Source: Candidatus Coatesbacteria bacterium
GTDB lineage: Bacteria > RBG-13-66-14
Length of the DNA: 40,147 nucleotides
Reading direction: 5' to 3'
NCBI GenBank assembly: GCA_014728225.1
Contig: WJLX01000026.1
Coordinates: 1-40,147, forward strand
Both the position numbers and the translations under genes were made by a program. The notes under the pieces were generated by a model. The model saw only the letters and a program-made list of their open reading frames with translations, had not been told where the DNA came from and did no database searches. Of this stretch, positions 9,467-36,989 are shown one piece after another (position 1 is the first letter of the stretch; every line of letters begins with the position of its first letter).

Positions 9467-10975
9467 ATGCCGATGACACTGAATCAACCCAAGCTGACCC
9501 TCGATCAATCCCTTAAGCTGCAGCTCAAGCTGTCGCCGAAGCTGCAGCAGGCCATCAAGCTGTTGGCCCTGCCCATCCTGCAGCTCAAGGACCGCGTCGA
9601 CGAGGAACTCCTCAGCAACCCCGTCCTGGAGGCCGAACAGGGTGGCGAAGCCGGCATCCAGACCGACAGCGAACTCGAAGAACGCGACCGCGGCGACGAG
9701 GCCTGGGAGGCCCAGCGGGACTACCTGCCCTCGGACGAAACCCCCACCGACAACAACCATTCCGAGCGCGACTGGGAAGACTACCTGCGTTACGATCCGC
9801 GCCCCTACCGCCCGCCGCGACCGCTCGAGGTCTCGGAGGAAGACTCCTACATCGACCGGGTCGTCGCCCGGGAGACCTCCCTCAACGATCACCTGCTGTG
9901 GCAGTTGCGGCTCAACTGCGACGACGAGCGCCGGGAGATCATCGCCGCCGAACTCGTCGGCAACCTCGACGACGACGGTTACCTGCGCGGTTTCGATACC
10001 ACCGAGCTGGCCGAGGATCTCGACCTCGACCCCCCCGCCGACGCCGCCGAGATCGAGGAGGTCCTCACCGGCTGCGTCCAGGGCCTGGACCCCCTCGGCG
10101 TCGGCGCCCGCGACCTGCGCGAGTGCCTGTTCATCCAGTTGGCCCCCCTGGCCGAGAACGGCACCGAGCCCGAACTGGTCGAGCTGGCCCGCCGGATCAT
10201 CGACGGCCACCTCAACGAGGTCGCCAAGCGCAAGTACAAGAAACTGGCCCGCACACTGAAAGTCGATGTCGAGCGCCTGCGCGAAGCCGTCCATCTGGTC
10301 GCCGGCCTGGACCCCAAACCGGCGCGCAACTACACCGGCACCGCCGCCACCTACGTCAAGCCCGATGTCTTCATCGAGAAAATCGGCGACGAGTACCGCA
10401 TCTATCTGAACGAATGGGGCATCCCCCGGTTGCGGATCTCCAACTACTACCGCCGCCTGGTCGCCGCCGGCGCCGCCGACAAGCAGACCAAGGAGTTCAT
10501 CCGCGACAAGATCAACTCCGCCGTCTGGTTCATCAAAAATATCGACGAGCGGCGCCGCACCATCCTCAGCGTCACCGAGTTCATCTTCGAGTACCAGCGC
10601 GACTTCCTCACCAAGGGCCTCGAAGGCCTGCGCCCCCTGACCCTGGACACCGTCGCCGAGGCCGTCGACCTCAATCCCAGCACCGTCAGCCGGGCCACCT
10701 CGGGCAAGTACGTCCAGACACCCCGGGGCCTGTTCGAGCTGCGCTTCTTCTTCTCCGGCGGCATCTCGACCACCGACGGCGGCGAGGGCGTCTCGACGAC
10801 CTACATCAAGGAGCGCATCCGCCGGCTGATCGCCGAGGAGACGACACCCCTCTCCGACCAGGCCATCGCCGACACGCTCCACGACGATGAGGGGCTGGAC
10901 ATCGCCCGGCGCACCGTCGCCAAGTATCGCAAACAGATGAAGATCCCCTCGTCCTCACGCCGCAAACCCCTCTAG
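9467..10975 (+). CDS. rpoN: RNA polymerase sigma-54 factor RpoN
   Basis: Sigma-54 of 502 residues. Region I (about 1-50) is Gln/Leu-rich and binds activators and core (LKLQLKLSPKLQQAIKLLALPILQL). An acidic region II follows, then the core-binding domain, a helix-turn-helix (VAEAVDLNPSTVSRATSGKYVQTP) and the RpoN box ARRTVAKYR at about 480-488, which reads the -24 element. All parts are intact, so the cell should recognise GG-N10-GC promoters, with initiation depending on AAA+ enhancer-binding proteins, none of which is in the window. A palindromic element whose arms match this promoter pattern begins 82 bases after the stop. Confidence 0.96.
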   Translation: MPMTLNQPKLTLDQSLKLQLKLSPKLQQAIKLLALPILQLKDRVDEELLSNPVLEAEQGGEAGIQTDSELEERDRGDEAWEAQRDYLPSDETPTDNNHSERDWEDYLRYDPRPYRPPRPLEVSEEDSYIDRVVARETSLNDHLLWQLRLNCDDERREIIAAELVGNLDDDGYLRGFDTTELAEDLDLDPPADAAEIEEVLTGCVQGLDPLGVGARDLRECLFIQLAPLAENGTEPELVELARRIIDGHLNEVAKRKYKKLARTLKVDVERLREAVHLVAGLDPKPARNYTGTAATYVKPDVFIEKIGDEYRIYLNEWGIPRLRISNYYRRLVAAGAADKQTKEFIRDKINSAVWFIKNIDERRRTILSVTEFIFEYQRDFLTKGLEGLRPLTLDTVAEAVDLNPSTVSRATSGKYVQTPRGLFELRFFFSGGISTTDGGEGVSTTYIKERIRRLIAEETTPLSDQAIADTLHDDEGLDIARRTVAKYRKQMKIPSSSRRKPL

Positions 10976-11056
10976 CCCGAACGCTGACTCCGCCGCGCCG
11001 TCCGCGACCTTCGAAACAAACGACACGGCACACCGGGAGCACAGGGAAACGGCGAC

Positions 11057-11143
11057 GCCGGAACCGGCACGGTTTTTGCGGAGGCCCGCCGGGGCACTCC
11101 GTCCCGGCGGGCGCCGAGATGCAAAAACCGTGCCGGTTCCGGC
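11057..11143 (+). repeat. Dispersed palindromic element, copy 2 (complete)
   Basis: Outer arms at 11057-11079 and 11121-11143 are a perfect 23-bp inverted repeat. An inner 10-bp perfect stem pairs 11084-11093 with 11103-11112. Between outer and inner stems the two strands differ: GGAGG on the left and CGAGAT on the right, as in every copy. Arms contain CGGCACGGTTTTTGC, the sigma-54-like pattern, facing each other. It lies between rpoN and lipA. The rest of the 300-base gap (10976-11276) shows only an AT-richer, TACTAT-containing stretch near 11240 that may be a lipA promoter. Confidence 0.92.
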
Positions 11144-11276
11144 CGGCGGGGATTCAACCGCCCGCCTGAGTGTTGTTTCGAAGGTCGCGCCGCGCCGTCC
11201 GCAACTGTAACGACGGTAAGCCGCAACACAGAGCAATACGCAATACTATTATCCCACCCCCCACCAAAAAGAAAAA

Positions 11277-12146
11277 TTGCCGACTACATCCCACCCCCGT
11301 CATCCCCGTTGGCTGCGTCGGGAGCCGCCCCGGAGCGAACACCTGGGCGAGGTGCGCCGCACCCTGCGCGAGCAGCGCCTCAGCACGGTCTGTGAGAGCG
11401 CCCGCTGCCCCAACCGCGGCGAGTGCTACGGCTGCGGCACCGCCACCTTCATGATCCTGGGCGAGCGCTGCACACGCAACTGCCGCTTCTGCTCGGTGCC
11501 CCACGGCGATCCGCCCCCGGTCGATAAAGATGAACCCCGGCGTCTGGCCGTGGCCGTGCGTCGCTGGGGGCTGTCCTACGTGGTGGCGACCTCGGTGACC
11601 CGGGACGACCTGCCCGACGGCGGCGCGGCCCAGTTCGCCGCCGTGATCGACGCCGTGGGCGCCCTGCCGGGACAACCCCCCGTCGAGGTGCTGGTGCCCG
11701 ACTTCGCCGGGAACCCGGCCGCCGTCGACGACGTTACCGAAGCCGGACCCGCAGTCTTCGCTCACAACATCGAAACCGTGCCCCGGCTCTACCCCCGGGT
11801 GCGCCCCGGCGCCGATTACGAGCGCTCCCTCGCGGTGCTGCGCCGCGCCGCCGCTAACGGGCTGACAACCAAGAGCGGTCTGATGCTCGGCCTGGGCGAG
11901 AAACGGCACGAATTGGAGCGGGTCTTCGCCGAGCTCACCACCGTCGGCGTTCGCAGCCTGACCCTGGGGCAGTACCTGCGTCCCACGACGGAGCAATTAC
12001 CCGTGGAACGCTACCTGCCGCCGGACGAGTTCGCGGAGTTGGCGGACCTCGCCCGCAACGCCGGGATCGACAGCGTCCTCAGCGGCCCCCTGGTGCGCAG
12101 CTCCTATTGCGCTGCGCAAACATACCACGAACTGTCCGGGAGCTGA
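11277..12146 (+). CDS. lipA: Lipoyl synthase
   Basis: LipA, a radical-SAM enzyme that inserts two sulfurs into octanoyl groups on lipoyl domains of 2-oxoacid dehydrogenases and GcvH. At 289 residues it is of normal length. The auxiliary cluster cysteines are Cys39, Cys44 and Cys50, the radical-SAM CxxxCxxC is Cys65, Cys69 and Cys72, and the C-terminal RSSY motif at about 274-277 supplies the serine ligand. The start is TTG at 11277 without a clear ribosome site; the conserved RHPRWLR segment begins only eight residues in, so the true start must be close. LipB is not adjacent. It sits between rpoN and hpf, which are neighbours in many bacteria. Confidence 0.94.
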   Translation: MPTTSHPRHPRWLRREPPRSEHLGEVRRTLREQRLSTVCESARCPNRGECYGCGTATFMILGERCTRNCRFCSVPHGDPPPVDKDEPRRLAVAVRRWGLSYVVATSVTRDDLPDGGAAQFAAVIDAVGALPGQPPVEVLVPDFAGNPAAVDDVTEAGPAVFAHNIETVPRLYPRVRPGADYERSLAVLRRAAANGLTTKSGLMLGLGEKRHELERVFAELTTVGVRSLTLGQYLRPTTEQLPVERYLPPDEFAELADLARNAGIDSVLSGPLVRSSYCAAQTYHELSGS

Positions 12147-12152
12147 TCATCA

Positions 12153-12178
12153 CGAGCGGTCGTCGCGAGCGGTCGTCG
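12153..12178. repeat. Two tandem 13-bp repeats upstream of hpf
   Basis: CGAGCGGTCGTCG occurs twice back to back (12153-12165, 12166-12178) in the 134-base gap between lipA and hpf. It may be regulatory or a small slippage product. Confidence 0.5.
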
Positions 12179-12280
12179 CCCTCGAACTCATCAAGATGTA
12201 GATTATCTCGTCCCGCAACCTCCAGACACCTGTTACACCAGCCACCCCGTCGCACGACGGGCTCATCACGGGAGGGACAG

Positions 12281-12844
12281 ATGAAGGTCCATATCGTCGG
12301 ACGCCATTTCGATATCACCGATGCCGTCAAGAGCTACGTCGAGGATCGCCTGCAGAAGATCCGCCGCCACTTCGACCGGGTGATGGACGTCAACGTCACC
12401 TTGAACCAGGAGAAATACCGGCACATCGCCGACATCGACATCAACGTCAACGGCGTCAACATGCACTGCGAAGAGGAAACCGGCGATATGTACACTTCCA
12501 TCGACCTGGCGGTGGACAAGATCGACCGCCAGGTACGACGCTACAAGGAAAAACTACAGCGACGCAAACAGCGCGCCCGCTCCACCGCCGCCGTGGCCGA
12601 AGAACAATTGCCCCAGGCGACATACGAGCTGCTGGAGCCCGACGCCGGCGAGGTCAGCGAGGAAGAGCGCAAGATCATCAGGAGTGAACGGCACCTGATC
12701 AAGCCGATGAGTCTCGACGAGGCCGTGATGCAGATGGACCTGAACAACGCCGACTTCTACGCTTTCACCAACGCCCGGACGAACAATATCAACGTCGTCT
12801 ATCGTCGCACCGACGGCAATGTCGGCTGGATCGCCCCGGAGTAG
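12281..12844 (+). CDS. hpf: Long-form ribosome hibernation-promoting factor
   Basis: HPF/RaiA family, 187 residues. Residues 1-100 form the S30AE domain that occupies the mRNA/tRNA channel of idle 30S subunits (KVHIVGRHFDITDAVKSYVE, DLAVDKIDRQVRRYKEKL). A linker and a C-terminal dimerisation domain follow (about 130-187: IIRSERHLIKPMSLDEAVMQM, FYAFTNARTNNINVVYRR). The long form pairs ribosomes as 100S particles. ATG 12281 is chosen because GGAGGG lies directly upstream at 12271-12276; an in-frame start at 12107 overlaps lipA and adds no conserved sequence. Confidence 0.94.
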   Translation: MKVHIVGRHFDITDAVKSYVEDRLQKIRRHFDRVMDVNVTLNQEKYRHIADIDINVNGVNMHCEEETGDMYTSIDLAVDKIDRQVRRYKEKLQRRKQRARSTAAVAEEQLPQATYELLEPDAGEVSEEERKIIRSERHLIKPMSLDEAVMQMDLNNADFYAFTNARTNNINVVYRRTDGNVGWIAPE

Positions 12845-14430: not shown

Positions 14431-14511
14431 CTCGTCCATTACCGCTTAACCGCACGGCAATACAGTTGATAACAGCCCCCGCGGACCATGTGCAACCCCC
14501 AATCCCGCGGC

Positions 14512-14599
14512 GCCGGAACTGGCACGGTTTTTGCATCTCGGCACCCGTTAATAAACGCTGCTAACGGGTCGCCTCCGCAAAAACCGTGCCAGTTCCGGC
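14512..14599 (-). repeat. Dispersed palindromic element, copy 3 (complete, inverted orientation)
   Basis: Outer arms 14512-14534 and 14577-14599 are a perfect 23-bp inverted repeat. The inner stem pairs ACCCGTTA (14543-14550) with TAACGGGT (14562-14569). The left arm on the plus strand reads CTGGCACGGTTTTTGCATCT, the closest sigma-54 match in the window, including A after TTGC. The arm carries T where copies 1, 2 and 5 carry C, and the opposite arm carries the matching A. It lies in the convergent gap between the lipoprotein gene and tRNA-Asp; the remainder of 14600-14700 shows nothing else recognisable. Confidence 0.92.
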
Positions 14600-14703
14600 G
14601 TTCGTCAGTGACGGTGGGCGGTGTTTACTTCAGGCTGTTATCAACTGTTTTGCCGCTGGTGATGCCGCGTTGCTTGACGGGGTAATAACGGAGTAATAAA
14701 GGA

Positions 14704-30421: not shown

Positions 30422-30732
30422 TAGCTCGTAGTAACTTTTTTACAAAAAAATAGTTAGCGCTATCATCATCTGTAAGACACAGGAAACCGAAGAACCGACG
30501 GTTTCGTTAAAGAACCCAATGTTAATGAATCTTAACTACATGAAATATTAGCTTTTATACCCATCTTGCCTCGTGGTGCAAGCAGGTGGGGAGAAACAGA
30601 CGCGCGACCGTGCGCCGCTCGCGCACCGAGCGATGCCAATATCAGATACGCGCAACTAGCCGCGGGCCGGACAATCGCCAAGGCAGCTCTGAAAAAACGC
30701 CCGGCACACCGCGACAAGCCAAGAACCTCCGC
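30422..30732. other. AT-rich gap upstream of the mraZ promoter
   Basis: This stretch is markedly AT-rich to about 30560 (runs such as TTTTTTACAAAAAAATAG), unlike the rest of the window. It contains a small stem GAAACCG/CGGTTTC (30483-30489 with 30499-30505). No convincing gene is seen; a 61-codon frame on the minus strand lacks a ribosome site and coding bias. It may hold UP-element or regulator sites for the dcw promoter. Confidence 0.5.
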
Positions 30733-30819
30733 GCCGGAACTGGCACGGTTTTTGCGGAGGTGGACCGTTATACTTCTTCGTAACGGTCACCGAGATGCAA
30801 AAACCGTGCCAGTTCCGGC
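30733..30819 (+). repeat. Dispersed palindromic element, copy 4 (complete)
   Basis: Outer arms 30733-30755 and 30797-30819 are a perfect 23-bp inverted repeat. The inner stem pairs GACCGTTA (30763-30770) with TAACGGTC (30781-30788). It has the same strand-specific GGAGG/CGAGAT internal loop as the others. The arms read CTGGCACGGTTTTTGC. The CGAGAT-side arm points (minus strand) toward mraZ. Confidence 0.92.
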
Positions 30820-30882
30820 GCCGCAGGGTTCACCGGCGCGCCGATCGACAGCGGCTGTTTTCAGAGCTGCGGGGGATTAGAA

Positions 30883-36399: not shown

Positions 36400-36727
36400 G
36401 GGTTAGAAATCCTTTAGTTTAGACAAACAGGTTACGACCCGTCACGCGGGCCTGGTCACTCACCTGGATCGTGTCGGCGATTTGGTAAACGCTGCTGGGA
36501 TGCCGACGAATGGCGAGCCGGGGCTCGAAGAGGTCGGCGTCTCGATAGCGATGGAGGGAATGTAACACAGGGCGCCGGTAAATGAAAAGGAAAAAAACGG
36601 ACCGCGAGTCGGGCCGTCACCGCATCTAGATCCAGGCGGACCGCAGGTCGGGCATCAATCAGGCCCCCCCGGGGACCCGGGATGCTCCCACGACGAAAAA
36701 CCACCCCCGGGCGGCTTACCCGCCCGG
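36400..36727. other. Upstream region of rpsA, no further gene seen
   Basis: The region between the rpsA start and palindromic element copy 5. It should contain the rpsA promoter: a TAAACT -10-like hexamer lies near 36415 on the minus strand, but no good -35 was found. Open frames here lack ribosome sites. Confidence 0.4.
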
Positions 36728-36819
36728 CCGCCGCAACCGGCACGGTTTTTGCATCTCGGCGAGCGTTGCCGGTTGATGCTAACGCTTCGCCTCCGCAAAA
36801 ACCGTGCCGGTTGCGGCGG
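36728..36819 (-). repeat. Dispersed palindromic element, copy 5 (complete, inverted orientation)
   Basis: The inverted arms extend to 25 bp (36728-36752 and 36795-36819). They carry GCAACC/GGTTGC where other copies have GGAACC/GGTTCC, so both strands changed together. The inner stem pairs AGCGTT (36762-36767) with AACGCT (36781-36786). The left arm on the plus strand reads CGGCACGGTTTTTGCATCT, pointing toward the acyl-CoA dehydrogenase gene. Confidence 0.92.
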
Positions 36820-36989
36820 TGGAGGTCGCGAAGGATGCCGCTGGGGCGGGGTTCCAGGAGGGGGTGGTTTTTCGTCGTCGCTGCCGCTGACGTTCAGTCT
36901 AAGCGAACCGCCCGCGCGGGTGGTGGGGAGACGGCTCTGGTCCTTCGTAGATCGGCGGTCGGGAATTCGCCGGAGTCAAGCAGCGCCTG

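Follow-up and report, generated by a model that had tools for sequence, protein, structure and literature searches.

The contig studied here raises the question of what kind of palindrome recurs at five separate places between its genes, and whether it is a mobile repeat or a functional structured site. The window, that is the whole stretch of 40,147 nucleotides analysed here (G000:C26:1-40147), is contig 26 in the assembly of an uncultured Candidatus Coatesbacteria relative, the genome under study (G000; 2.96 Mb, 96.8% complete). The nearest relative with a name is Candidatus Coatesbacteria bacterium Bin_537 (G001), which belongs to a sister genus of the same family.

The initial annotation described an element of 87-92 bp with 23-bp arms, a fixed loop (GGAG... 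/ ...GAGAT) and a variable inner stem, lying in tandem, convergent and divergent gaps. All five copies are present where it placed them, and the arms, the loop, the inner stem and the three arrangements were all found. Its length holds for the core palindrome, but the full unit is about 195 bp (~185-204 bp) with outer inverted repeats, and the match of the arms to sigma-54 promoters had been missed.

Copies in the window

Copy 1 (1-63, + strand) is incomplete because the window begins at the contig start; its right arm is intact at 41-63. Copy 2 is a full unit of 187 bp (11003-11189, +) in the tandem gap that separates rpoN from a radical-SAM gene, 28 nt past the rpoN stop codon. Its core palindrome (11057-11143, +) holds inward-facing sigma-54-like boxes, GGCACGGTTTTTGC, at 11066-11079 (+) and 11121-11134 (-), and its left outer arm CGCGACCTTCGAAACAA (11003-11019, +) pairs with the right outer arm TTGTTTCGAAGGTCGCG (11173-11189, +). 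Copy 3 (201 bp; 14455-14655, -) has its core at 14512-14599, boxes at 14521-14534 and 14577-14590, and outer arms at 14455-14477 and 14633-14655. The corresponding parts of copy 4 (188 bp; 30683-30870, +) are a core at 30733-30819, boxes at 30742-30755 and 30797-30810 and outer arms at 30683-30695 and 30858-30870, and those of copy 5 (189 bp; 36690-36878, -) are a core at 36728-36819, boxes at 36739-36752 and 36795-36808 and outer arms at 36690-36708 and 36860-36878.

The gene just before copy 2, rpoN (9473-10975, +), is the only one in G000 with a match to the sigma-54 DNA-binding domain. The order across 9473-12844 is rpoN, the unit, the radical-SAM gene and a ribosome-hibernation/sigma-54-modulation (S30AE) gene.

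Copy number and taxon range

Hundreds of copies per genome had been predicted from the five, and this was borne out: a looser arm pattern gives 240 matches in the 2.96 Mb of G000, or about 240 copies. The exact arm-loop core pattern matches 174 times and its reversed control 0 times, so the copies are far above chance. Counted singly, the arms total 265 in forward and 260 in reverse orientation, thus nearly all arms have a partner. G001 contains 147 pattern matches, and a third element type is found in G006 (40 matches). Related genera carry their own lineage-specific versions, in which the identical invariant bases are kept. In a search of 290 genomes, the inverted-box pattern was absent outside this Candidatus Coatesbacteria family; G002 has one match.

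De novo palindromes and isolated boxes were read in 1.4 Mb of G000, about half of the genome, and genes were called by a simple codon-usage script. The G000 palindromes in this 1.4 Mb were found without a sigma-54-shaped pattern, whereas G001 loci were retrieved by one, so the conservation of the boxes in G001 is partly due to the selection of loci. Contigs C9, C16, C20, C23, C26, C34, C72, C94, C112 and C133 of G000 start or end within a unit. Since many assembly contigs are broken inside units, near-identical recent copies may be under-represented.

Anatomy and pairing of the unit

From the inside outwards, the unit consists of a variable inner stem, a conserved internal loop, the core arms, a spacer of ~42 nt and an outer inverted repeat of ~20 bp; the hairpin of 87-92 bp is the core only. 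The core arms are 23-33 bp long and perfect (150 of 159 de novo palindromes in 1.4 Mb of G000). The outer inverted repeat, ~42 nt beyond the core on either side, is copy-specific, and its median score is 38 in G000 and 32 in G001, compared with 18 and 17 for mismatched partners. Read outward, the right outer arm is roughly TTTTTCAAAGGTC in G000 and TTTGGCAAAGGTC in G001, yet in many copies the outer arm is unrelated in sequence to the consensus and still perfectly paired. G006 elements have no outer inverted repeat.

Changes in the arms come in matched pairs. In G000 core arms 118 changes are compensated and 7 uncompensated, and at the six outermost core-arm positions, which were not used in copy selection, 102 changes are matched vs 3 unmatched. 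In an alignment of 32 copies, 99.9% of cells pair and the covariation is above that of all 500 shuffles. The outer arms of G000 pair at 80-97% per column, where 30-77% is expected, and each column shows three to four pair types. By eye the spacers do not align between copies, and the longest alignments between copies reach an identity of at most 76% over about 205 bp. With arms kept by compensated changes and spacers that cannot be aligned, the units are constrained. Neutral decay would leave unpaired arms, which are almost absent, so selection on the stems for pairing is the simplest inference from these sequences. Arm-to-arm copying (template switching) could keep the pairing as well, but would not preserve the sequence common to the core arms.

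Sigma-54-like boxes in the arms

The consensus of sigma-54 promoters is TGGCACG-N4-TTGC(T/A) (PMC9765219). The invariant bases of the arms, (T)GGCAC-N5-TTGC, agree with its -24/-12 elements in both arms, which face inward 40-43 bp apart. The promoter core, with GG and GC ten bases apart, occurs as GGCAC-N5-TTGC in 150 of the 159 de novo palindromes in 1.4 Mb. Variation in the arms falls almost wholly at positions that sigma-54 leaves free; genera and copies differ at N5 (GGTTT, GTTTC, GTTTT, ATTTC, AGTTT, GATTC) and at T(-26). The spacing of the facing boxes is 40-42 in 157 of 161 G000 copies; in two others it is 30-31, shorter by roughly one helical turn, and in G001 it peaks at 43 and 39-40. 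Position -11 is A in one arm of the unit and G in the other, giving an A.C or G.T mismatch in 155/161, 66/90 and 25/26 copies in three genera.

Isolated perfect boxes are few, 8 in 1.4 Mb of G000, all of them intergenic, and 7 of the 8 lie 25-63 nt before a start codon. These isolated sigma-54 promoters all have A or T at -11, while their T at -26 is built into the search pattern. There are about 8 strong activator-domain genes in G000. No shared upstream activator motif was found at the isolated promoters. The outer arm was considered as a sigma-54 activator site and rejected, as its motif is absent upstream of 7 isolated promoters.

Judged from the boxes, the chances that sigma-54 polymerase binds at the paired sites seem evenly balanced. 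The departures from the consensus count against it and against a boundary function built on it: position -26 is C rather than T in 62% of G000 arms (T in 38%; T in nearly all G001 arms), and one arm per unit has G at -11.

A more specific proposal is that the hairpin-borne inward box pairs are structural docking sites genome-wide, each unit being a hairpin promoter or roadblock, perhaps free of activators; we regard this as improbable. Sigma-54 promoters start melting at -11. In a folded form of the unit, single-strand or cruciform, the arm pair would make a duplex -24/-12 box that ends at -12, beside the conserved -11 mismatch. If the units were docking sites of this kind, inversion of the inner segment would set the side with the favourable base.

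Some viral contigs among L301-L380 (e.g. L317, L328, L332, L341, L348) contain clustered inverted TGGCAC-N5-TTGC motifs of varying spacing, which are possibly sigma-54-like or phage-specific promoter arrays. They were rejected as relatives of the unit and look unrelated, with other spacing and no shared arms.

Placement relative to genes

No unit lies inside a called gene in G000 or in G001; in G006 it is 1 of about 26 copies, with a caller trained on G000. The element is thus a REP in the broad sense of a high-copy dispersed intergenic palindrome (~240 copies, 0 in called genes). Element-bearing gaps make up 28% and 37% of convergent, 12% and 19% of tandem, and 11% and 17% of divergent gaps in G000 and G001, respectively. 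Units are nearer to stop than to start codons, and the outer arm starts 0-20 nt past the stop codon at roughly 30-40% of the gene ends counted. They show almost no preferred orientation with respect to the genes (56 to 36 in G000, 20 to 19 in G001).

An intrinsic terminator was rejected: the arms run T-stem-A, the opposite of the terminator polarity, and intrinsic terminators occur at similar rates at gene ends with and without an element (21% vs 15% in G000, 12% vs 19% in G001), so the element is not a terminator replacement. From this placement, a role of the units as boundaries at the ends of transcription units is plausible, though short of probable. The similar terminator rates weigh against it, and so do the 16 G000 units in divergent gaps.

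The element could also act purely at the RNA level, its DNA boxes being irrelevant: as a long hairpin at the 3' end it would shield messages, serve as a cleavage site for RNase III or halt transcription. The predicted folds of unit transcripts are very stable (-112 to -133 kcal/mol), units adjoin stop codons, and the pairing of the outer arms is kept with little constraint on their sequence. However, such a role would leave unexplained the fixed inner-arm sequence with its 40-43 bp spacing, as well as the variation across genera mainly at non-consensus box positions, and we find it unlikely.

Active portable promoters, resembling Correia elements, are another reading, in which transcription could start from either arm, cross the inner segment and enter the adjacent gene, and inversion picks the arm with A(-11). 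The boxes do share their core and spacing with the sigma-54 promoters of the genome itself, 155 of 161 copies carry A at -11 in exactly one arm, and inner orientation is random in G001 and has flipped in one orthologous copy (see below). Promoters of this sort are quite improbable all the same, given that units favour convergent gaps and lie nearer to stop codons, that their orientation to genes is nearly random, and that isolated promoters lack a common upstream activator motif.

Site turnover and mobility

Comparison of orthologous gaps, as the initial annotation had proposed, gave mostly unshared sites. Among 121 gene pairs that are neighbours in both genomes, a unit is present only in G001 in 18, only in G000 in 7 and in both in 3, that is, 3 of 28 sites are common to the two genera. 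Filled gaps measure 240-360 bp and empty gaps 6-19 bp. The genera differ in their sites and every lineage has a consensus of its own, so the elements have dispersed. A G001-type copy at L046:1888-1982 in G000 and a G000-like copy at L071 in G001 were also seen.

At one shared site (C10/L183) the G000 copy is of the G001 type; it has the same outer arm, GTCAGCCGAGGTC, but its inner segment is inverted. Across G001 the orientation of the inner segment is independent of the outer ends (18 to 17). From the inverted ortholog and the random orientation in G001, the inner segment appears to flip over evolutionary time.

Direct repeats at the flanks of 144 and 62 units are as frequent as shuffling predicts, in agreement with the earlier statement that no target-site duplication is visible. 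The annotation had also suggested a RayT-type transposase; Y1 tyrosine transposases (RAYT, PF01797) number 0 in G000 (96.8% complete) and 0 in G001 (99% complete), and mobilisation by RAYT was rejected. No transposon was seen between arms. In 722 kb no element-like arm lacks a partner except at contig ends (the remaining genome was covered by arm counts only), and only one outer-arm-like hairpin is without a sigma-54 core, which speaks against an autonomous parent transposon. An origin from phage or plasmid was rejected for lack of any match. Among the longest alignments no pair of copies is more than 76% identical over about 205 bp, hence no recent copying is seen. Both possibilities raised at the outset, mobile repeat and functional structured site, find support, for the elements have dispersed and their arms are constrained.

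A second hairpin family in G000, family B, has 22 matches in 1.4 Mb, two of which are degraded copies of the main family. It reads CGTCACGGTTNTTGC, a copy-specific inner hairpin, then GCAANAAC(N2)G(T/C)GCCGG, with N covarying. Its sites include L057:7074, L051:13263, L065:10091, L066:1500 and L059:6127, and about half are in convergent gaps. It has the TT-N-TTGC stem in common with the main family and mostly no proper -24 box.

A plain MITE/REP-like selfish repeat would account for part of this: its inner-arm hairpin would be recognised by some transposase or nuclease and the sigma-54 match would be coincidental. The lineage-specific consensus, the non-orthologous sites and the filled and empty gaps fit such a repeat, and the A.C/G.T mismatch that is fixed immediately inside the arms of three genera recalls the polarity marks of hairpin substrates. 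Family B, with the same stem and mostly no full -24 box, also speaks for it and against sigma-54 docking at boundaries. Nevertheless, the Y1 transposase gene, target-site duplications and closely similar copies are all missing, and the unpaired arm decay expected of neutral copies is almost absent. Moreover, the probability of a chance 10-base match in a 23-bp arm is ~2e-5, a rough figure before allowing for many recognisable motifs. On balance a purely selfish repeat is rather unlikely.

Proposed explanation

The palindrome is very probably a dispersed non-coding nested element of the REP/MITE/Correia class, limited to one Candidatus Coatesbacteria family. Beyond copy number, anatomy, pairing, taxon limits, placement and site turnover, which are direct observations, we propose that the units were amplified separately in each genus by some activity, and may now be held by selection for their stems and sigma-54-like boxes. 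At the ends of transcription units they would act as direction-neutral boundaries, where transcripts entering from either side would fold into very stable hairpins. The paired boxes are candidate docking sites for sigma-54 RNA polymerase, and polymerases docked there could face each other head to head, stalled as closed complexes. Our confidence in this explanation as a whole, from the class of the element to sigma-54 docking at boundaries, is about even.

Small dispersed palindromes are common in bacteria, and it is usually hard to judge whether the host retains them for a function. Here, the answer can partly be read from the sequence, with hundreds of copies whose spacers cannot be aligned while stems, motif and spacing are kept. 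If sigma-54 polymerase binds the units, there would be far more sigma-54 sites in repeats than in ordinary promoters, and that polymerase would have a new role.

Comparison with known repeats

The initial annotation knew of no named family with such a design, and our comparisons agree. At the gathering score Rfam returns only two tRNAs in the window, the matches of the element being far below the cut-offs, and a known RNA family was rejected. A literature search on sigma-54 and such repeats gave nothing relevant. The design, the sigma-54 boxes and the matched-pair arm changes of this palindrome appear undescribed. It is a new taxon-restricted family, and what sets it apart is the sigma-54 boxes together with the doubly covarying stems.

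ERIC elements (IRU/RU-1) of enterobacteria are likewise intergenic palindromic units, ~127 bp long and implicated in mRNA stability (PMC2229807). They differ in their 7-bp TIRs, TA ends, target-site duplication and unrelated sequence, and copy-specific covarying arms are not in their description.

REP/BIME and REPIN sequences (GTAG and CGTC classes) are also intergenic palindromes in hundreds per genome, often at gene ends, and the CGTC REPs have no known transposase either (PMC3733652, PMC3116915). However, REPs are 20-40 bp long with a GTAG or CGTC tag next to a short hairpin, whereas the Coatesbacteria unit has a perfect arm pair of 23-33 bp nested in ~195 bp and no RAYT, and GTAG at the hairpin foot is absent from the consensus of 143 copies.

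Correia elements (CREE/NEMIS) of Neisseria are likewise dispersed and non-coding, about 100-155 bp long, bounded by terminal inverted repeats of ~24 bp and with promoters at their ends; their hairpin RNA is handled by RNase III, and inversion has been reported (PMC2229807, PMC10969869, PMC2649163). The unit resembles them in being dispersed and non-coding, in its inverted repeats, promoter-like boxes and predicted hairpin, and in its apparent inversion. Correia promoters are sigma-70-like, with TA ends and target-site duplications, while the Coatesbacteria unit has inward sigma-54-like boxes and, outside the core, another stem that covaries, and lacks target-site duplications; TA is near an end in only 16% and 19% of units. 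The unit is therefore closest to Correia elements in design and to REPs in abundance, without the defining features of either. By analogy, it would work most like both, as a palindrome at gene ends able to bind host proteins and to fold in transcripts.
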